Source of the DNA: Allomuricauda sp. CAU 1633
GTDB lineage: Bacteria > Bacteroidota > Bacteroidia > Flavobacteriales > Flavobacteriaceae
Direction: 5' to 3'
Assembly (NCBI RefSeq): GCF_017313225.1
Contig: NZ_JAFLNE010000011.1
Span: 1-64,000, forward strand
Length of the DNA: 64,000 bases
The number at the start of each line of letters is the position of its first letter. The stretch's first letter is position 1. A program made the position numbers and the translations under genes. Below are positions 1 to 9,534 of the stretch, one piece after another. The notes below the pieces were generated by a model. It was not told where the DNA came from. It was given only the letters and a program-made list of their open reading frames with translations, and made no database searches.

Positions 1-311
1 GCCACCAATACAAGTGATATTACCACCAACGCAACCAATATCGCCACAAATACAACTGATATAGCAACCAATGCAACAAACATCGCAACGAATGCTGCTG
101 ATATAGCTACAAACACAGCTGACATTGCAACGAATACTGCTGATATCGCAACCAATGCCACGGACATTGCGAACCACATCGCGGCCGATGGTGACACGGA
201 TGCGGGGAACGAGTTCAACACCTCTTTGGGCCTTAATGGTACGGTTCTGGAGCTTGTTGACGGCGGCGGACTTTTGAGCGACGACCTAGATGCGGTCTTC
301 GCCACGGATGC
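1..311 (+). repeat. Near-identical direct duplicate, copy A (copy B at 1708-2018)
   Basis: Bases 1-311 match 1708-2018 at a constant offset of 1707. I see only two mismatches by eye, at 147 and 293; the second changes Ala to Glu in the globular module. Similarity drops abruptly after about 311. Such nucleotide identity among otherwise diverged modules points to a recent duplication or gene conversion. Confidence 0.8.
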
Positions 312-3300
312 GGAGCTGGCCGCTGCCAGTGACGACGACATCACGGGTGCCACCCTTGATGCACCGAGCAACGTGTTGACTATAAGCGAGGGCACCACGG
401 ATGTCACAGTTGACCTCAGTGACCTTGACGACAGCGCCGGTGTGGCCGCCAACGCTGCCAACATCACAACGAACACAAGTGACATCGCAACAAATACAGC
501 AGATATCGCAACGAACGCGACCAATATCGCGACCAATACAGCTAATATTGCTACGAACACGTCAGATATTGCCACCAATGCTTCGGACATTGCAACAAAT
601 GCAACCGATATTGCAACGAATACTGCTGATATCGCCACCAATGCCACTGACATCGCGAACCACATCGCGGCCGATGGTGACACGGACGCTGGGAACGAGT
701 ACAATACGGGAAGTGGTATCACCGGGGGGAGTCTTGAGATCACTGATGGTGGCGGCACGGAGTCCGTCAACCTGATCAGTGGTGACGCCAACAACAACTT
801 AACCGCTGGTTCCGATGGGGCACTGTACCTCAACGTGGCATCGGTATCGATAGCCGAGACCAACACCTCTTTGTCTTTTAATGGAGCAACGAGTGAGCTG
901 ACCTATACCAATGAGTTGGGGAATAATCCCGTTGTTGACATATCCAGCCTTGACGACAGTTCGGGTGTGGCCGCCAACGCTGCCAACATCGCAACCAATA
1001 CAACTGATATAGCTACGAACACGTCAGATATTGCCACGAATGCAAGTGACATCGCAACAAATACAGCAGATATCGCAACGAACGCGACCAATATCGCGAC
1101 CAATACAGCTAATATTGCTACGAACACGTCAGATATTGCCACCAACACGTCTGACATCGCAACCAACACGACCAATATAGCGACAAATACATCAGATATT
1201 GCGACCAATGCAACAAACATCGCCACAAATACGAGCGACATTGCAACAAACGCTGCAAATATCACCACGAACGTGACCAATATTGCAACCAACACAGCTG
1301 ACATTGCCACAAATGCTTCGGACATTGCTACAAATAGCAGTAACATCGCAACAAACACAGCTGACATAGCCACCAATGCCACTGATATTGCAAACCACAT
1401 AGCTGCGGATGGTGACACGGATGCTGGGAACGAGTTCAATACCTCTTTGGGCCTCAACGGCACGGTACTGGAGCTTGTTGACGGTGGTGGGCTGTTGAGC
1501 GACGACCTTGACGCCGTCTTTGCCACGGATGCGGAGCTGGCCGCTGCCAGTGACGACGACATCACGGGAGCCTCCCTGGATGCACCGAGCAACGTATTGA
1601 CAATCAGCGAAGGCACCACGGATGTTACCGTTGACCTCAGCGATCTGGACGATAGCGCAGGTGTGACCGCCAACGCTGCCAATATCGCCACAAATACATC
1701 TGATATAGCCACCAATACAAGTGATATTACCACCAACGCAACCAATATCGCCACAAATACAACTGATATAGCAACCAATGCAACAAACATCGCAACGAAT
1801 GCTGCTGATATAGCTACAAACACAGCTGACATTGCAACGAATACTGCTGATATAGCAACCAATGCCACGGACATTGCGAACCACATCGCGGCCGATGGTG
1901 ACACGGATGCGGGGAACGAGTTCAACACCTCTTTGGGCCTTAATGGTACGGTTCTGGAGCTTGTTGACGGCGGCGGACTTTTGAGCGACGACCTAGATGA
2001 GGTCTTCGCCACGGATGCCGAGCTTGCCGCTGCAAGTGACGACGACATCACGGGGGCCTCTTTGGATGCGCCGAGCAACGTCTTGACGATAAGCGAGGGC
2101 ACCACTGATGTCACGGTTGACCTGAGCGACCTGGACGACAGTGCGGGCGTGGCGGCCAACGCTGCCAACATCGCAACGAACACATCCGACATCGCCACAA
2201 ATACTGCTGATATCGCTACCAATGCTACTGACATTGCAACGAATGCTTCGGATATTGCAACCAATACAGCTGACATCGCTACCAACACATCCGATATCGC
2301 AACAAACGCGACCAATATTGCCACCAATGCCACGGACATCGCGAACCACATAGCTGCGGATAGTGACACGGATGCCGGGAACGAGTTCAATACCTCTTTG
2401 GGCCTCAACGGTACGATACTGGAGCTTGTTGACGGTGGCGGACTTTTGAGCGATGACCTAGATGCGGTCTTTGCCACGGATGCAGAGCTGGCCGCTGCCA
2501 GTGACGACGACATCACGGGTGCCTCTCTGGATGCACCTAGCAACGTCTTGACGATAAGCGAGGGCACCACGGATGTGACCGTTGACCTTAGCGACCTGGA
2601 TGACAGCGCCGGTGTGGCCGCCAACGCTGCCAACATCGCTACAAATACGTCTGATATAGCGACAAATGCTTCGGACATTGCTACAAATAGCAGTAACATT
2701 GCAACCAACGCTACCAATATAGCCACCAATACAGCAGACATTGCCACCAATGCCACTGATATCGCAAACCACATAGCTGCCGATGGTGACACGGATGCTG
2801 GGAACGAGTTCAACACCTCTTTGGGCCTCAACGGCACGGTACTGGAGCTTGTTGACGGTGGTGGGCTGTTGAGCGACGACCTTGACGCCGTCTTTGCCAC
2901 GGATGCCGAGCTGGCCGCGGCCAGTGACGACGACATCACGGGAGCCTCTCTGGATGCACCGAGCAACGTTTTGACGATCAGCGAGGGCACCACCGATGTG
3001 ACGGTTGACCTGAGCGATCTGGACGACAGTGCGGGAGTTGCGGCCAACGCTGCCAATATTGCAACGAATACAAGTGACATTACTTCGAATACATCAGATA
3101 TTGCGACCAATGCAACAAACATCGCCACAAATACGAGCGACGTCGCAACAAATACAGCAGATATCGCCACAAATACTACTGATATCGCCACCAATGCCAC
3201 TGACATCGCGAACCACATCGCCGCGGATGGTGACACGGATGCTGGGAACGAGTTCAATACCTCTTTGGGCCTCAACGGTACGGTACTGGAGCTTGTTGAC

Positions 3301-6300
3301 GGTGGCGGACTCTTGAGCGACGACCTTGATGCGGTCTTCGCCACGGATGCGGAGCTGGCCGCTGCCAGTGACGACGATATCACGGGTGCCACCCTTGATG
3401 CACCGAGCAACGTGTTGACGATAAGCGAGGGGACCACGGATGTTACGGTTGACCTGAGCGATTTGGACGACAGTGCGGGTGTGGCCGCAAACGCTGCCAA
3501 CATCGCCACAAATACAAGTGACATTGCAACGAACACAGGTGACATCGCAACGAATGCTGCTGATATCGCCACCAACACGTCAGATATAGCCACGAACGCT
3601 ACAAATATTGCTACAAACACAAGTGACATTGCCACCAATGCCACGGACATTGCGAACCATATCGCGGCCGATGGCGACACGGACGCGGGGAACGAGTACA
3701 ACACTGGAAGTGGTATCACCGGGGGGAGTCTTGAGATCACTGATGGTGGCGGCACGGAGTCCGTCAACCTGATCAGTGGTGATGCCAACAACAACTTAAC
3801 CGCAGGTTCCGATGGGGCACTGTACCTGAACGTGGCATCGGTATCTATAGCCGAGACCAACACTTCTCTGTCCTTTAACGGTGCGACCAGCGAGCTGACC
3901 TACACCAATGAGTTGGGGAATAACCCGGTTGTGGATATTTCCAGCCTTGACGACAGTTCGGGTGTGGCCGCCAACGCTGCCAACATCGCCACAAATACGT
4001 CTGATATAGCGACAAATGCTTCGGACATTGCAACGAATGCTTCGGATATTGCAACCAATACAGCTGGCATTTCAACTAATGCAACGAACATCACCACCAA
4101 CACATCCGATATCGCAACTAACGCGACCAATATTGCGACCAATGCCACTGACATCGCCAACCACATAGCTGCGGATGGTGACACGGATGCCGGCAACGAG
4201 TTCAACACCTCTTTGGGCCTCAACGGTACGGTACTGGAGCTTGTTGACGGGGGCGGACTTTTGAGCGATGACCTAGATGCGGTCTTCGCCACGGATGCCG
4301 AGCTGGCCGCGGCCAGTGATGACGACATCACGGGAGCCTCTCTGGATGCACCGAGCAACGTGTTGACGATAAGTGAGGGCACCACGGATGTCACGGTTGA
4401 CCTTAGCGACCTTGACGACAGCGCAGGTGTGGCCGCCAACGCTGCCAATATTGCAACCAATGCTTCGGACATTGCCACGAACGCGACCAATATTGCAACA
4501 AACACAACCAATATTGCCACCAACACGTCTGACATCGCAACAAACACAAGCGATATCGCCACAAATGCAACAAACATCGCTACCAACGCTACCAATATTG
4601 CGACAAATACATCTGATATAGCCACCAATGCCACGGACATCGCCAACCACATAGCTGCGGATGGTGACACGGACGCTGGGAACGAGTTCAACACCTCTTT
4701 GGGCCTCAACGGTACGGTACTGGAGCTTGTTGACGGTGGCGGACTTTTGAGCGACGACCTTGATGCGGTCTTCGCCACGGATGCCGAGCTGGCCGCGGCC
4801 AGTGACGACGACATCACGGGAGCCTCTCTGGATGCACCGAGCAACGTTTTGACGATCAGCGAGGGCACCACCGATGTGACGGTTGACCTGAGCGACCTTG
4901 ACGACAGCGCGGGTGTGGCCGCCAATGCTGCCAACATCGCCACGAACACAACTGATATAGCGACCAACGCAACGAATATTGCTACAAATGCAAGTGATAT
5001 CGCCACAAACACAAGTGATATTGCAACTAATACAACAAACATTGCAACAAATACAGCAGATATCGCAACGAACGCGACCAATATTGCGACCAATGCCACT
5101 GATATCGCGAACCACATCGCAGCGGATGGTGACACGGATGCCGGCAACGAGTTCAACACCTCTTTGGGCCTCAATGGCACGGTACTGGAACTTGTCGACG
5201 GGGGCGGACTTTTGAGCGATGATCTTGACGCCGTCTTTGCCACGGATGCCGAGCTGGCCGCTGCGAGTGACGACGACATCACGGGCGCGACCCTCGATGC
5301 ACCGAGCAACGTCTTGACGATAAGCGAGGGCACCACGGATGTTACCGTTGACCTTAGCGACCTTGACGACAGCGCAGGTGTGGCCGCCAATGCTGCCAAC
5401 ATCGCCACGAACACATCCGACATCGCAACCAACGCGACCAATATCGCCACCAATGCCACTGATATCGCGAACCACATCGCAGCGGATGGTGACACGGATG
5501 CCGGCAACGAGTTCAACACCTCTTTGGGCCTCAACGGTACGGTACTGGAGCTTGTTGACGGTGGCGGACTCTTGAGCGACGACCTTGATGCGGTCTTCGC
5601 CACGGATGCGGAACTGGCCGCAGCCAGTGACGACGACATCACGGGGGCCTCTTTGGATGCACCGAGCAACGTGTTGACGATAAGCGAGGGCACCACGGAT
5701 GTCACCGTGGACCTGAGCGATCTTGACGACAGTGCGGGAGTGGCGGCCAACGCAGCCTACATCGCTACCAACGCTACCAATATTGCGACAAATACATCTG
5801 ATATAGCGACCAATGCTTCTGACATTGCAACGAACACAAGTGATATCGCCACAAATGCAACAAACATCGCTACCAATACATCTGATATAGCAACGAATGC
5901 TTCGAACATCGCCACAAATACGGCTGATATAGCTACAAACACATCCGACATTGCCACCAATGCCACAAGCATCGCGAACCATATCGCGGCCGATGGTGAC
6001 ACGGACGCCGGAAATGAGTACAACACTAACTTTACGGTTACCGGTGGTAATCTTAGGATAACTGATGGGGGAGGGAACCTTGATGTGCCCTTAACTTCAA
6101 TAGATACAGATGATCAAACTGCATCAGAAGTAAATTCAGACAGCCCTGTGGATGTTGACGGTGATGGAAATACAGAGTCAACGGTGGAAGATGTAATTCA
6201 AGATATTGCACCAATTACTTCCAAAGCGGCAAGAATATTTTATCCACCGTCCATAGCCATTGATGCTTCAACCAATGGTACGGGAAGAACTGTGGATTTG

Positions 6301-6528
6301 TATGCTCAATATGTTGCTCAATATGGAACCCCAACGGTTGCCAGTACAGGCGCGCCAGCAGCGATTCCAACCTACGCGGCCACTGACCTATATTACTATG
6401 TGACCTATGCAGACCCATCGGTTTTTGATAATATGAGTATTGATGCCAATGGTGAACTAACCTATGATATTGTTGGACAGCCTGCAGATTACAATGCTTT
6501 GATCAATGTGGTATTTGTCGTAAAATAG
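1..6528 (+). CDS. Giant repetitive surface protein with heptad-repeat stalks (5' end outside window)
   Basis: The frame is open from base 1, so the true start lies upstream; the Met at 226 is internal. The visible part (about 2175 codons) alternates two elements. One is a roughly 90-100-residue acidic globular module, anchored by DTDAGNE and ending in LDDSAGVAANAAN. The other is a stalk of exact heptads I-A-T-N-(T/A)-x-(D/N). Twelve complete stalks carry 9, 19, 9, 8, 6, 7, 7, 8, 9, 8, 3 and 10 heptads, with no broken heptad. Ile at a and Asn at d matches the N@d motif (IxxNTxx) of trimeric autotransporter stalks, so a long trimeric fibre is inferred. The last 170 residues are non-repetitive and end in aromatic, strand-rich sequence. 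No CHU_C sorting domain is visible. Neighbours (a CHU_C protein and PorP/SprF) suggest cell-surface display through type IX secretion. Confidence 0.85.
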   Translation, partial: ATNTSDITTNATNIATNTTDIATNATNIATNAADIATNTADIATNTADIATNATDIANHIAADGDTDAGNEFNTSLGLNGTVLELVDGGGLLSDDLDAVFATDAELAAASDDDITGATLDAPSNVLTISEGTTDVTVDLSDLDDSAGVAANAANITTNTSDIATNTADIATNATNIATNTANIATNTSDIATNASDIATNATDIATNTADIATNATDIANHIAADGDTDAGNEYNTGSGITGGSLEITDGGGTESVNLISGDANNNLTAGSDGALYLNVASVSIAETNTSLSFNGATSELTYTNELGNNPVVDISSLDDSSGVAANAANIATNTTDIATNTSDIATNASDIATNTADIATNATNIATNTANIATNTSDIATNTSDIATNTTNIATNTSDIATNATNIATNTSDIATNAANITTNVTNIATNTADIATNASDIATNSSNIATNTADIATNATDIANHIAADGDTDAGNEFNTSLGLNGTVLELVDGGGLLSDDLDAVFATDAELAAASDDDITGASLDAPSNVLTISEGTTDVTVDLSDLDDSAGVTANAANIATNTSDIATNTSDITTNATNIATNTTDIATNATNIATNAADIATNTADIATNTADIATNATDIANHIAADGDTDAGNEFNTSLGLNGTVLELVDGGGLLSDDLDEVFATDAELAAASDDDITGASLDAPSNVLTISEGTTDVTVDLSDLDDSAGVAANAANIATNTSDIATNTADIATNATDIATNASDIATNTADIATNTSDIATNATNIATNATDIANHIAADSDTDAGNEFNTSLGLNGTILELVDGGGLLSDDLDAVFATDAELAAASDDDITGASLDAPSNVLTISEGTTDVTVDLSDLDDSAGVAANAANIATNTSDIATNASDIATNSSNIATNATNIATNTADIATNATDIANHIAADGDTDAGNEFNTSLGLNGTVLELVDGGGLLSDDLDAVFATDAELAAASDDDITGASLDAPSNVLTISEGTTDVTVDLSDLDDSAGVAANAANIATNTSDITSNTSDIATNATNIATNTSDVATNTADIATNTTDIATNATDIANHIAADGDTDAGNEFNTSLGLNGTVLELVDGGGLLSDDLDAVFATDAELAAASDDDITGATLDAPSNVLTISEGTTDVTVDLSDLDDSAGVAANAANIATNTSDIATNTGDIATNAADIATNTSDIATNATNIATNTSDIATNATDIANHIAADGDTDAGNEYNTGSGITGGSLEITDGGGTESVNLISGDANNNLTAGSDGALYLNVASVSIAETNTSLSFNGATSELTYTNELGNNPVVDISSLDDSSGVAANAANIATNTSDIATNASDIATNASDIATNTAGISTNATNITTNTSDIATNATNIATNATDIANHIAADGDTDAGNEFNTSLGLNGTVLELVDGGGLLSDDLDAVFATDAELAAASDDDITGASLDAPSNVLTISEGTTDVTVDLSDLDDSAGVAANAANIATNASDIATNATNIATNTTNIATNTSDIATNTSDIATNATNIATNATNIATNTSDIATNATDIANHIAADGDTDAGNEFNTSLGLNGTVLELVDGGGLLSDDLDAVFATDAELAAASDDDITGASLDAPSNVLTISEGTTDVTVDLSDLDDSAGVAANAANIATNTTDIATNATNIATNASDIATNTSDIATNTTNIATNTADIATNATNIATNATDIANHIAADGDTDAGNEFNTSLGLNGTVLELVDGGGLLSDDLDAVFATDAELAAASDDDITGATLDAPSNVLTISEGTTDVTVDLSDLDDSAGVAANAANIATNTSDIATNATNIATNATDIANHIAADGDTDAGNEFNTSLGLNGTVLELVDGGGLLSDDLDAVFATDAELAAASDDDITGASLDAPSNVLTISEGTTDVTVDLSDLDDSAGVAANAAYIATNATNIATNTSDIATNASDIATNTSDIATNATNIATNTSDIATNASNIATNTADIATNTSDIATNATSIANHIAADGDTDAGNEYNTNFTVTGGNLRITDGGGNLDVPLTSIDTDDQTASEVNSDSPVDVDGDGNTESTVEDVIQDIAPITSKAARIFYPPSIAIDASTNGTGRTVDLYAQYVAQYGTPTVASTGAPAAIPTYAATDLYYYVTYADPSVFDNMSIDANGELTYDIVGQPADYNALINVVFVVK
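1708..2018 (+). repeat. Near-identical direct duplicate, copy B (copy A at 1-311)
   Basis: Second copy of the segment at 1-311, covering one stalk and the start of the next globular module. It carries Glu rather than Ala at the position encoded near 2000. Confidence 0.8.
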
Positions 6529-6551: not shown

Positions 6552-8573
6552 TTGAAATCAAAAAACCAACATAAGTCTTTATTCATTGGATTGTTCGTCC
6601 TGTTTTTGGGGATGAACTTTGCGAATGCCCAGTTTCTGCTTCAAGCACCAAATACAGGGGATGAAACCAACTATCAATGGTTTGAAGCTTCAGATGTAGG
6701 AACTGTTCTAGGAACAAACTCCTTTTATGAAGCCACTCAACCTGGGGCATACTTCGCCACCTATGACGGTACACTCTGCGGATCAAATGCTACGGGCTAT
6801 TTCATTTTAACCAACTGCAATGCTCCTGATAATGAAGTTATACTTGATATTTCGGCAAGTGTGCCATCTGGTACAACCGTGAGTTGGAATCCTGCATTAT
6901 CTGGAGACCAAACCCGACCAATGGTCACTAGTACTCAAACGGTAATGCGTTACACGGCCACGATCACCAAAGCCGGAAATGCCAAAGCACTTCCACGATT
7001 TACGGTGGTGTGCATGAGCCAAGCTGCTAATTTGGTAGATGATTTAATTGTGGTGAATGAAGACGAATCCGTTGGAGTTCCCATTTTTGACAATGATTCA
7101 GATTTGCCAACTACGGGAACACTTACCACAACGAATCCATCCAACGGTTCGGTTAACATCAATAACAATGGTACGGCCAATGACCCATCGGATGATATGG
7201 TTACCTATACACCGAATCCAGATTACAATGGAAGTGATTCTTTTGATTATACCATCTGTAATTCGTTAGGGGATTGTAGTACGGCTACGGTAACTGTGAA
7301 TGTGCTTCCCATTGTGGACACTAGTGATGATTCAGTTTCAACAGATGTTAACATGGATATTGTGGTTCTGTGGAGAGGTAATGATAATGATATCCCTACT
7401 TCAGGTTCCATTTCGGCTACAGATCCATCCAATGGAACCATCGTGCTAAATGATAATAGTACCCCAAATGATCCGTCTGATGATGATATCACCTATTTAC
7501 CCAATCCAGACTTTATCGGAACGGATACGTTTGAGTATACGGTTTGCGACACCAATGGAAATTGTGATACTGCTACGATAACAATACTTGTCAATTCGCT
7601 CGGCATTGATTTGGATAGTGATGGGGACGGTATTGTGGACAGCTTTGAAGACCTTAATGCCGATAATGATAATGATCCATCCACCAATCCAACAGATACG
7701 GACGGGGATGGTTTCCCAGACTATTTGGATATTGATAGTGATGATGATGGTATTCCGGACAATATTGAAGCACAACCTGCACTGGGTTATATAGCCCCAA
7801 GTCTGGTAGATGCCAACGGTAACGGTTTGGATGATGCCTATGAAATGGATGGTAATATTGGTTTGATTCCAATGGATTCTGACAATGATGGTATTCCAGA
7901 TTATGTTGATACTGATAGCGATGACGACAATGTGCCCGATGCCATTGAGGGTCATGATCTTGATCACGATGGAATTGCTGATGTAATCTTGATAGGTTCA
8001 GACAAGGACAATGACGGATTGGACGATGGCTACGAAGCGGATACTGTAATCGATATCGATGTCAATGATAAAATTGATAACCCAAGCTTAGACTTACCCG
8101 ATACAGATTCTGATGGTATTCCAGATTTTAGGGATTCTGATGATGACGATGACGGTATTGAAACCATTGATGAAGATCTGGACCAAGATGGAAATTATGC
8201 CAATGATGATTCCAACGAAAATGGAATCCCCAACTATCTAGACCCAGATCTTGGAGAAACTACAGCGGAGACAGTCGATGTGATTAACGTAATCACACCC
8301 AATGGAGATGGAATCCATGATGTATTGACTATCAACGGACTTGAAAATTATCCGAACAACACGGTCAAAATTTATAACCGATGGGGTGTTATGGTCTATC
8401 AGACCAGAGCCTATGATACTGTTGGGAATGTCTTCGATGGCACTTCCCAAGGAAGGGTCACCGTAGATCAGGACAATAAACTTCCTGTAGGCACCTATTT
8501 CTATATCATAGACTACCAAGATGATACTGGGAATATGAAACAACTTTCAGGGTATATATACATAAACCGATAA
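6552..8573 (+). CDS. Secreted cadherin-like / thrombospondin type 3 / CHU_C protein (type IX secretion cargo)
   Basis: 673 residues. A signal peptide (1-26, ending ANA before Gln) is kept only if translation starts at TTG 6552; the first downstream in-frame ATG (Met21) would remove most of it, and the ATG at 6531 meets a stop at once. After a first domain come two tandem cadherin-like Ig modules (about 160-345, NDNDIP and YTPNPDYNGSDSF-type motifs). An Asp-rich thrombospondin type 3 repeat tract follows (about 350-570, DSDGDGI-type calcium loops). The last ~95 residues are a CHU_C (gliding-motility-associated, type B) sorting domain: ITPNGDG, KIYNRWG, GTYFYIIDY. It lies 23 bp after the repeat protein and 4 bp before a PorP/SprF gene, the usual arrangement for type B cargo. 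Confidence 0.9.
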   Translation: MKSKNQHKSLFIGLFVLFLGMNFANAQFLLQAPNTGDETNYQWFEASDVGTVLGTNSFYEATQPGAYFATYDGTLCGSNATGYFILTNCNAPDNEVILDISASVPSGTTVSWNPALSGDQTRPMVTSTQTVMRYTATITKAGNAKALPRFTVVCMSQAANLVDDLIVVNEDESVGVPIFDNDSDLPTTGTLTTTNPSNGSVNINNNGTANDPSDDMVTYTPNPDYNGSDSFDYTICNSLGDCSTATVTVNVLPIVDTSDDSVSTDVNMDIVVLWRGNDNDIPTSGSISATDPSNGTIVLNDNSTPNDPSDDDITYLPNPDFIGTDTFEYTVCDTNGNCDTATITILVNSLGIDLDSDGDGIVDSFEDLNADNDNDPSTNPTDTDGDGFPDYLDIDSDDDGIPDNIEAQPALGYIAPSLVDANGNGLDDAYEMDGNIGLIPMDSDNDGIPDYVDTDSDDDNVPDAIEGHDLDHDGIADVILIGSDKDNDGLDDGYEADTVIDIDVNDKIDNPSLDLPDTDSDGIPDFRDSDDDDDGIETIDEDLDQDGNYANDDSNENGIPNYLDPDLGETTAETVDVINVITPNGDGIHDVLTINGLENYPNNTVKIYNRWGVMVYQTRAYDTVGNVFDGTSQGRVTVDQDNKLPVGTYFYIIDYQDDTGNMKQLSGYIYINR

Positions 8574-8577
8574 GAAA

Positions 8578-9534
8578 ATGGTCGCTTTGGAAAAAAAGGC
8601 TTTTAGAAATACAATTAAGGGGCTACTTACCGTGTTGCTGCTAGGGGTAATGGGAGCAGTTTATGCACAACAAGATGCACAGTACACGCAATACATGTAC
8701 AACACGGTAAGTGTAAACCCTGCCTATGCCGGTTCTAGGGGACATTTGAGCATAGCCGCCCTGTATCGTAACCAATGGTTGGGATTGGATGGCGCACCCG
8801 AGACGCAGACCCTTAATATTCACACCCCAATGGGATACCGAGGGGTTGGTTTGGGGCTTTCTGTAGTAAATGATAAAATAGGCCCAACTTCAGAGACGTA
8901 TTTTGATGTGGACTTTTCCTATACCATCTATACCTCTTTGGAGGGCAGGTTGAGTTTTGGTCTGAAGGCCAGTGCCCACATGCTCGATATTCGATATTCA
9001 GAACTGGATGAGTTTGAAATTGACCCGCAATTGCAATCACAGCAGGATATCCAAAATAAGTTTTCGCCCAACATAGGTGCCGGGGTGTATTATCATACCG
9101 ACAGATTTTATGCTGGACTTTCTGCACCAAGAATACTGGAAACCACCCATTTTGATGAGTCTTCCGTGTCTACGGCCAAAGAACAGATAAATTTATACGC
9201 CATTACAGGCTATGTTTGGGATTTGAATCCTTTCTTAAAATTCAAGCCCACCCTTTTGACCAAGGTAGTGCAAGGAGCTCCATTGCAGGTTGACCTTTCC
9301 GCCAACTTCATGCTGAATGAACGGTTTATCGGGGGAGTGGCCTACCGATGGGATGCTGCTTTCAGTGGCTTGTTCGGCTTTATGGTCTCCGACCAATTTA
9401 TGATCGGTCTCGCCTATGACCGTGAATTCACCGAATTGGGGGCCGCTACTTTCAATGATGGTTCTTTTGAGGTCATTCTTCGATATGATTTCATCAGAAA
9501 CGTGGGCAATCTTAAATCGCCACGGTTCTTTTAA
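8578..9534 (+). CDS. PorP/SprF family type IX secretion outer-membrane protein
   Basis: 318 residues, with a signal peptide to about Ala30 and then the family hallmark QYTQYMYN followed by VNPAYAGSRG. The rest is an alternating-strand outer-membrane beta-barrel ending in an aromatic C-terminus. PorP/SprF proteins pair with CHU_C cargo and help bring it through, or attach it to, the outer membrane; SprF does this for SprB in Flavobacterium. The 4-bp gap to the CHU_C gene makes co-expression and partnership likely. The specific cargo, CHU_C protein or giant repeat protein or both, is inference. Confidence 0.92.
   Translation: MVALEKKAFRNTIKGLLTVLLLGVMGAVYAQQDAQYTQYMYNTVSVNPAYAGSRGHLSIAALYRNQWLGLDGAPETQTLNIHTPMGYRGVGLGLSVVNDKIGPTSETYFDVDFSYTIYTSLEGRLSFGLKASAHMLDIRYSELDEFEIDPQLQSQQDIQNKFSPNIGAGVYYHTDRFYAGLSAPRILETTHFDESSVSTAKEQINLYAITGYVWDLNPFLKFKPTLLTKVVQGAPLQVDLSANFMLNERFIGGVAYRWDAAFSGLFGFMVSDQFMIGLAYDREFTELGAATFNDGSFEVILRYDFIRNVGNLKSPRFF

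Follow-up and report, generated by a model that had tools for sequence, protein, structure and literature searches.

Background

The stalks of trimeric autotransporter adhesins (TAAs) are described (PMC4786415) as long and interrupted by beta elements, and the fibre treated here is like them in having long stalks broken up by beta elements. Compared with the TAA stalks in the PDB that carry Asn at position d of their heptads (N@d; 2wpq, 2wpr and 2wps, and UspA1, 2qih and 6qp4), the fibre has the same I-x-x-N-(T/A)-x-x heptad pattern; it differs from TAAs in having no YadA anchor, in its unrelated N- and C-terminal caps, in its neighbourhood of type IX secretion (T9SS) type and in carrying Asn at d in all of its heptads. 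The SprB-type giant adhesins and other type B substrates of T9SS with PorP/SprF partners (PMC12618676, PMC9143113) likewise involve in Flavobacteriaceae a giant repetitive gene beside porP/sprF-like and porE-like genes. Unlike those substrates, the fibre carries neither a type A nor a type B C-terminal domain (CTD); it is the neighbours that have the type B one. With prokaryotic collagen-like proteins the orthologues of the fibre share Pfam Collagen shafts, set between the same caps, whereas the protein described here has no Gly-X-Y shaft and is built on N@d heptads instead. Among the titles of the open-access literature we found none on such a fibre in Bacteroidota. Its most likely identity is a trimeric fibre of Flavobacteriaceae, shown at the surface with the help of T9SS.

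Results

A giant gene interrupted by a contig end

The window is the whole stretch of DNA analysed, 64,000 nucleotides of a marine flavobacterium. The giant fibre gene appears in it as a single open frame whose 5' end is open, and it is incomplete because the contig (C3) starts at base 1 of the window. Its 5' part was found separately in the same genome, while the middle stretch, between the two parts, is absent from the assembly.

1..6528, + strand: C-terminal part of the fibre gene, open frame of 2175 aa, interrupted by the contig end
Contig C14 (L009:1-1440), minus strand: 5' part of the fibre gene

The N-terminus begins with a signal peptide (judged by eye) and has a conserved cap (N-cap) with a CNC motif. 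The original prediction would have fallen if a full-length terminus had turned out to contain an autotransporter barrel or to lie in a phage context; the missing N-terminus, now located on C14, has neither.

Heptad stalks and the modules between them

The window protein contains 13 stalks, of which 12 are complete and the first is truncated, with modules of 92 or 105 residues between them.

1..165, + strand: first N@d stalk, truncated, with 7 complete heptads
967..1386, + strand: longest N@d stalk, 20 heptads with the lead one counted, also the source of PDB sequence matches
5740..5970, + strand: last N@d stalk, 11 heptads with the lead one counted
166..441, + strand: 92-residue module (coordinates, alignment and AlphaFold2 model of one copy)
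1387-1662, 1873-2148, 2338-2613, 2761-3036, 3205-3480, + strand: further 92-residue modules
4153-4428, 4639-4914, 5104-5379, 5464-5739, + strand: further 92-residue modules
652..966, with a second copy at 3649-3963, + strand: 105-residue variant of the module
6013..6093, + strand: sub-terminal module, NEYNTNFTVTGGNLRITDGGGNLDVPL

Leaving out the lead heptad of each, the complete stalks have successively 9, 19, 9, 8, 6, 7, 7, 8, 9, 8, 3 and 10 heptads, that is 103, with a range of 3 to 19, in agreement with the count given in the original prediction. The truncated stalk has 7 further heptads, and the total with the lead heptads is 122. Asn is present at d in 122 of 122; position a is Ile (109) or Val (13), and position e is mostly Ala (63) or Thr (56). 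The prediction that every stalk is made of I-x-x-N-(T/A)-x-x is right for 106 of the 122 heptads and wrong for 16, mostly lead heptads, while the strict form I-x-x-N-T occurs in 55. Ten of the 12 complete stalks start with the lead heptad VAANAAN, and the other 2 have a lead heptad with one residue changed. In all 12 the length is a multiple of 7 between identical module borders. The pattern I..N[TA].. is matched 106 times, whereas 500 shuffles gave 7.4 matches on average and never more than 17.

Pairwise DNA differences amount to 0.30, 0.04 and 0.64 at codon positions 1, 2 and 3, and there are 94 different 21-mers among the 122 heptads. The heptad repeat is maintained at the protein level; we rejected the idea of a satellite repeat at the DNA level because the divergence by codon position contradicts it.

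In a search of PDB sequences, the longest stalk (140 aa) matches four distinct entries at E<=0.01, and all four are stalks of trimeric autotransporters: UspA1 twice (2qih, 6qp4) and a "trimeric autotransporter adhesin fragment" twice (2wpr/2wps, 2wpq), the latter structures being presumably SadA fragments. A profile of module plus stalk has two PDB matches at this threshold, both named trimeric autotransporter adhesin fragment. In sequence the heptads match solved TAA stalks, which supports the N@d type predicted for them. In a single-chain AlphaFold2 model the stalk segments are helical (residues 2-29 and 111-140, block pLDDT 67-91). For heptads of such low complexity, PDB matches are in part an effect of composition. 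One could also suppose that the heptads form a dimeric coiled coil, a beta solenoid or a disordered spacer and only resemble N@d stalks, a reading which the composition of the stalks, rich in Thr, Asn, Asp and Ala, would accommodate; it is quite improbable in view of the strict a/d spacing of 3 and 4, of Asn at d in each heptad, of the match to solved trimeric stalks, of the helical model and of the collagen found at the same place in orthologues (see below). An exact ion-binding consensus for N@d heptads was reportedly given by Hartmann in PNAS in 2009; the stalks follow it only partly, because about half of the heptads have Ala and not Thr at e. The N@d stalks may have ion cores.

The AlphaFold2 model of one copy of the 92-residue module has six strands in two groups of three, and it is weak (pTM 0.42, single chain only). 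Fold searches gave no fold match for it, and no TAA fold is among the matches listed; this shows nothing, since only a single chain of what is presumably a trimer was modelled. The sub-terminal module occurs in the same form after N@d stalks (in the window and L010) and after other repeats (L011, L097), and in L029 it follows collagen and a linker of about 40 residues.

Conserved caps without a known family

6091..6525, + strand: conserved C-terminal domain (C-cap), 145 aa modelled, last residues LINVVFVVK

The model of the C-cap, based on an alignment of 52 sequences that took in 51 of the 60 loci, is a small domain made up of strands and a single helix, about 100 aa being mainly beta. The last 168 aa of the fibre match no family in Pfam (to E 1), NCBIfam (to E 0.5) or PHROGs, and neither C-cap nor N-cap has a family above cut-off in these libraries, which fits the "independent class" that had been proposed, as far as the caps are concerned. 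Fold searches with the C-cap gave nothing at E<=0.001 in the PDB or among viral models; the best VIA-align Z is 4.3 (a phage neck), discoidin and tailspike rows lie near 3-4, and no fold is claimed. The single match of a PDB profile search, at E 0.11, was disregarded.

The heptads, being the same as in TAA stalks, might suggest a type Vc trimeric autotransporter adhesin whose barrel was lost or missed. This is very improbable: the YadA anchor (PF03895) has no match in the organism's own genome, in a search whose E. coli control was positive. Among 70 genomes of the genus none reaches the cut-off, one of them falling just short of it. The modelled C-terminus, a small domain of strands with a single helix, is not a barrel segment. 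No known barrel family is found on the last 168 aa either, so that the predicted absence of an autotransporter barrel holds. Because the anchor is missing, membership of the TAA family is refuted; the fibre stands outside this family, even if it works as the stalk of a trimeric autotransporter does.

A search with the C-terminal domain, which had been named as a check of the original prediction, found one C-cap per genome in 63 of the 71 genomes that represent the genus. The neighbouring PorP and CHU_C genes are kept at 47 of 60 loci. In a sample of 395 genomes from the phylum, 13 have the C-cap, and these belong without exception to its own family or order. Eight C-cap proteins without the long shaft (207-690 aa) were scanned with Pfam, and none of them has a family above cut-off; one has a VacA2 match below it.

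The type IX neighbourhood

6552..8573, + strand: Big_9/cadherin-like protein with a type B T9SS sorting domain (CHU_C, TIGR04131), directly downstream of the fibre gene
8578..9534, + strand: PorP/SprF family outer-membrane protein

The neighbours of the fibre gene are two pairs of T9SS type-B-CTD and PorP genes and a PorE-like OmpA gene, and the type IX secretion genes noted beside the fibre are confirmed as a CHU_C/type B CTD protein and a PorP/SprF protein. PorP/SprF is the usual shuttle or anchor for type B CTD proteins (PMC12618676, PMC9143113). The OmpA neighbour stays below the NCBIfam cut-offs (PorE, 311 of 600 bits; CHU_0125_OmpA, 422 of 620), and the upstream CHU_C protein scores under that of TIGR04131. 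SprA is encoded in the genome. A T9SS-linked gene cluster is present, with PorP/SprF, PorE-like OmpA and CTD genes, together with SprA.

The T9SS route is drawn solely from these neighbours, because the C-cap is unlike a type B CTD and has no CTD family match. The type A and B families (TIGR04183/PF18962 and TIGR04131/PF13585) are not found on it in NCBIfam or Pfam, and kinship with type B CTDs was dropped, the hhalign probability against 23 of them being 0.2%. There is no NCBIfam match to a type C CTD on the fibre C-terminus, in a library which may lack a type C model; this type is ChiA-like (cl41395; PMC10202324). Taken alone, the display of the fibre through T9SS comes close to an even chance, on the lower side.

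The C-cap could instead be a new class of T9SS C-terminal signal and the fibre an ordinary substrate, with trimerisation elsewhere or absent. The C-cap does stand at the extreme C-terminus, is mainly beta over about 100 aa, has PorP genes beside it, is confined within the phylum sample to its own family or order, and ends like type B CTDs in a hydrophobic strand and Lys/Arg. Against this, it matches neither the type B profile nor any CTD family in NCBIfam or Pfam. CTDs are normally found on varied cargo, and the eight shaftless C-cap proteins have no Pfam family above cut-off. We regard this alternative as unlikely.

The position of the fibre locus is conserved, beside PorP, Nudix, PTPS and ManA-like genes. 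This chromosomal setting, the signal peptide and the C-cap in 63 of 71 genus genomes make a phage or prophage tail fibre scarcely credible, although the repetitive parts give matches to PHROGs profiles, a minor tail protein among them, and relatives contain DAATKAYVD-type repeats, which we take to be tail-fibre-like. C-cap, N-cap and module have no tblastn match in 50,697 phage records. The PHROGs matches, which comprise minor tail and minor head families among others, were taken as repeat or low-complexity matches, because the C-cap gives none and the N-terminal fragment matches at residue 227 and beyond. Other family matches were set aside as due to repeats or low complexity: Pfam Syntaxin and PI_PP_I on the window protein, which exceed their curated cut-offs over the whole protein although no single stretch does; COG3_N on L012 and POLO_box on L055; and NCBIfam TIGR04319, below its cut-off.

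Different shafts between shared caps

What is new beyond the first reading is that the caps are fixed and the type of shaft differs among orthologues. Orthologues keep both caps, and the shaft between them is built of N@d stalks in some, of collagen Gly-X-Y in others and of other repeats in the rest. With thresholds of at least 3 heptads for an N@d run and at least 6 triplets for a Gly-X-Y run, N@d runs occur in 10 of the 60 loci, Gly-X-Y runs in 11 and both in none, as judged on the visible frame; no visible fibre frame has the two together. Eighteen ORFs have both caps, of which 4 are N@d (L012, L102, L103, L105), 3 collagen (L055, L063, L100) and 11 other; N-caps in this set were partly picked by motif, so that the conservation of the motif there is by construction. 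Pfam Collagen matches L055 at E 5e-97 and L063 at E 3e-185. A comparison of gene spacing covered 57 C-cap frames.

When the shaft class is placed on a tree built from the two downstream genes, it requires at least 10 changes among 30 classified rows, a strict count which excludes 18 "other" rows with less than 450 aa visible and keeps N@d and collagen rows at any visible length. On the tree made first, which had all 48 rows, there were 12 changes. Of the 60 loci, 13 lacked both downstream orthologues at more than 400 bits and do not appear on the tree. What counts against the exchangeable shaft is that its classes are more clustered than in most shuffles (10 changes, against a shuffled mean of 13.2, a value as low being reached in 5 of 200 shuffles), and that N@d versus collagen alone needs only 3 changes. 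In these counts the shaft class is what is visible before the contig end, many frames from draft genomes being 5'-open and some having only 76-140 aa visible, and L023, with one run of 4 heptads, is classed as "other".

A coiled coil and collagen between the same caps are the best evidence for a trimer: with both elements between shared caps, a trimer is likely. A homotrimeric fibre with an exchangeable shaft is in our view probable.

Discussion

As a whole, the earlier interpretation is partly supported. We propose that three copies of the gene product assemble into a long homotrimeric surface fibre; surface display of the protein is probable. The chains would be exported by Sec and then trimerised through the caps. 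The stalks would form parallel three-stranded coiled coils in which buried layers of Asn at d fix the register and may hold anions, with the modules between them as spacers. The shaft would be exchangeable in evolution because any trimeric element fits between trimeric caps, be it the N@d coiled coil, a collagen triple helix or possibly tail-fibre-like repeats. The outer membrane would be crossed with the help of T9SS, and anchoring at the surface would take place via the co-encoded complex of CHU_C protein, PorP and PorE-like protein. The fibre could serve as a stationary adhesin or a surface brush.

In its fullest form, this amounts to an undescribed class of trimeric fibre with type IX display, fixed trimerising caps between which N@d (possibly anion-cored), collagen or other shafts are swapped, and a C-cap acting both as foldon and as export or anchor signal. 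We put forward this complete version tentatively, as a possibility.

If it is true, trimeric coiled-coil fibres would not be bound to type V autotransport, and Bacteroidota would have an independent way of building and displaying them. A locus at which the caps stay fixed while coiled-coil or collagen shafts take each other's place would be a natural experiment in fibre design. It would give a genetic and structural handle on how far a trimeric fold tolerates the replacement of its shaft, and on the way in which large oligomeric fibres get across the outer membrane next to the type IX machinery.

The heptad repeat of the fibre

The window opens inside the gene of a giant repeat protein, the fibre, contig C3 starting at window base 1:

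1-6528, + strand: fibre gene, C-terminal 2175 residues

A script split this frame into 13 stalks of exact heptads, mostly I-x-x-N-(T/A)-x-x (N@d stalks, with Asn at position d), separated by modules which are either 92 or 105 residues long. The original prediction had counted 103 complete heptads, 3 to 19 to a stalk, which is exactly what the 12 complete stalks contain without the lead heptad; counting the lead heptads, as well as the first stalk, which is truncated, brings the total to 122. Position d is Asn in all 122, position a is Ile (109) or Val (13), position e mostly Ala (63) or Thr (56) and position g mostly Asp (77) or Asn (42). Each of the 12 complete stalks has a length which is a multiple of seven residues, with identical module borders. 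The heptad motif is matched 106 times, against a mean of 7.4 and a maximum of 17 in 500 shuffles of the protein. These heptads are genuine and extreme.

Pairwise DNA differences between heptads amount to 0.30, 0.04 and 0.64 at the three codon positions, and the 26 copies of the peptide IATNTSD in 1-6528 are written in 22 DNA versions. This means that the repeat is maintained at the protein level. Identical heptads of this fibre seldom have common DNA, and such synonymous scrambling might shield the array from recombination.

The probable other end of the gene

A DNA search of the organism's own genome found repeats matching the fibre at the start of contig C14. This stretch (L009) encodes, toward the contig end, a signal-peptide-like start (judged by eye), a CNC motif and a WDG-type N-terminal domain, followed by a pair of stalks, one with 9 heptads and one with 7; it is the only one in the genome to match the conserved N-terminal domain (N-cap). 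C14 and C3 probably carry the two ends of one fibre gene, since in relatives both caps lie in a single frame in 18 ORFs, and since the combined neighbours of the two contigs reproduce the order found in the related loci L040 and L016. L016 has this same order, but its fibre is divided into two frames. There and in L099, N-cap and C-cap (the conserved C-terminal domain) occupy separate frames within one locus, which suggests a frameshift or an assembly error within the repeats.

Conserved ends and type IX secretion neighbours

We collected 60 loci that encode relatives of the fibre's C-terminus and aligned 52 sequences, the window's own included. The C-cap occurs once per genome in 63 of the 71 genomes of the genus; in a sample of the phylum it was found in 13 of 395 genomes (own genome counted), which all belong to the organism's own family or order. 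The fibre had been predicted to lie next to type IX secretion (T9SS) genes, and the neighbourhood search agrees. Both downstream T9SS-type genes are kept in 47 of the 60 loci. They follow 45 of the 57 C-cap frames examined, in which the next frame opens between -81 and +24 nt from the fibre stop. The gene order is type B CTD protein, PorP/SprF, OmpA/PorE-like protein, fibre, type B CTD protein, PorP/SprF, Nudix, PTPS and ManA-like; SprA is encoded in the same genome. The upstream CTD protein passed Pfam CHU_C (75 bits) but, with 32 of the 35 bits required, missed TIGR04131; the OmpA protein scores under the PorE and CHU_0125 cut-offs. The type B substrates tested in F. johnsoniae require PorP/SprF shuttles (PMC12618676), anchoring of type B substrates is a proposed role of PorP-like proteins, and PorE-like partners are proposed to fix non-mobile type B substrates to the wall (PMC9143113). 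No CTD was recognised in the fibre itself: its last 168 residues matched no family of any kind in NCBIfam or Pfam, and the C-terminal profile (52 rows) did not match that of type B CTDs (23 rows; hhalign probability 0.2%).

Distant C-caps with a different N-terminus were noticed in L065 (9582-10202; N-terminus GIGTTTPN...GLLLPR, unlike the fibre's) and L066 (8339-10408), hinting that the C-cap is older than the fibre locus. In Aquimarina (L051, 1777-16032; L057, 6167-14269) the C-cap belongs to a protein of 354-364 residues, whose gene adjoins separate collagen-like genes with another C-terminus and a CHU_C protein; the neighbours in L051 also include a large Calx-beta/CUB protein.

Different shafts between the same caps

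The repeats between the caps (the shaft) differ from one relative to another. Runs of at least three N@d heptads were present in 10 of the 60 loci and Gly-X-Y runs of at least six triplets in 11, the two together in no visible frame of the 60. The shafts of the 18 two-cap ORFs are N@d in 4, collagen in 3 and other in 11. Measured N@d frames have in common module lengths of 92 or 94, and 105; their stalk length varies. One N@d relative, L103 (G407:C2:1593200-1605500), contains 19 stalks, all with precisely 5 heptads, as if recently homogenised. One sub-terminal module (NEYNT...DGGG) recurs behind different shafts: it is preceded by an N@d stalk in the window and in L010, by collagen plus some 40 linker residues in L029, and by another repeat in both L011 and L097.

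A tree was built from both downstream genes with a careful method (48 rows); on it, shaft class changes at least 10 times among 30 classified rows. Shuffled classes gave a mean of 13.2 changes, and 10 or fewer in 5 of 200 shuffles. N@d versus collagen alone takes 3 changes over 16 rows. A locus from a MAG titled Algicola, by name Pseudoalteromonadaceae (L015), groups with Flagellimonas/Muricauda relatives; the title is probably a homonym or a mislabel.

Collagen is a triple helix, and the N@d stalks known from autotransporters are trimeric. Since both sit between shared caps, the best account of these sequences would be that the caps are trimeric, a reading which has support other than the heptads.

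Structure and nature of the fibre

The longest stalk gave 4 distinct PDB sequence matches at E<=0.01 and the module-stalk profile gave 2, all of them stalks of trimeric autotransporters. In single-chain AlphaFold2 models, module-stalk has helices at both stalk ends and a module of six strands (mean pLDDT 76, pTM 0.42), and the C-cap consists of strands along with helices (residues 32-39, 70-78; mean pLDDT 84, pTM 0.62). Fold searches with the C-cap and module models yielded no decisive match. The stalks may bind ions: one study describes chloride coordinated by Asn triads at d in trimeric coiled coils (PMC12933892). As it also reports that computed chloride binding was unstable in 2 of 3 systems, an ion core is not to be presumed.

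The fibre would work like the stalk of a trimeric autotransporter adhesin. Membership of that family was rejected, as the YadA anchor, looked for in the organism's own genome and 70 genomes of the genus, was absent (none over cut-off). One can notice a YadA_anchor-like match (22.1 bits, cut-off 22.7) in a 161-residue frame of a genus relative without C-cap match (L117, G439:C1:426110-426220). A phage fibre was also rejected, with nothing in its favour except profile matches on the repeats. The sequences show the anatomy of the protein, its gene neighbourhood, the conserved caps and the varied shafts between them. Most likely, this is a surface fibre of Flavobacteriaceae which is trimeric and has an exchangeable shaft, and which would be exported with the help of the T9SS; it would be displayed on the cell surface and may serve in adhesion.
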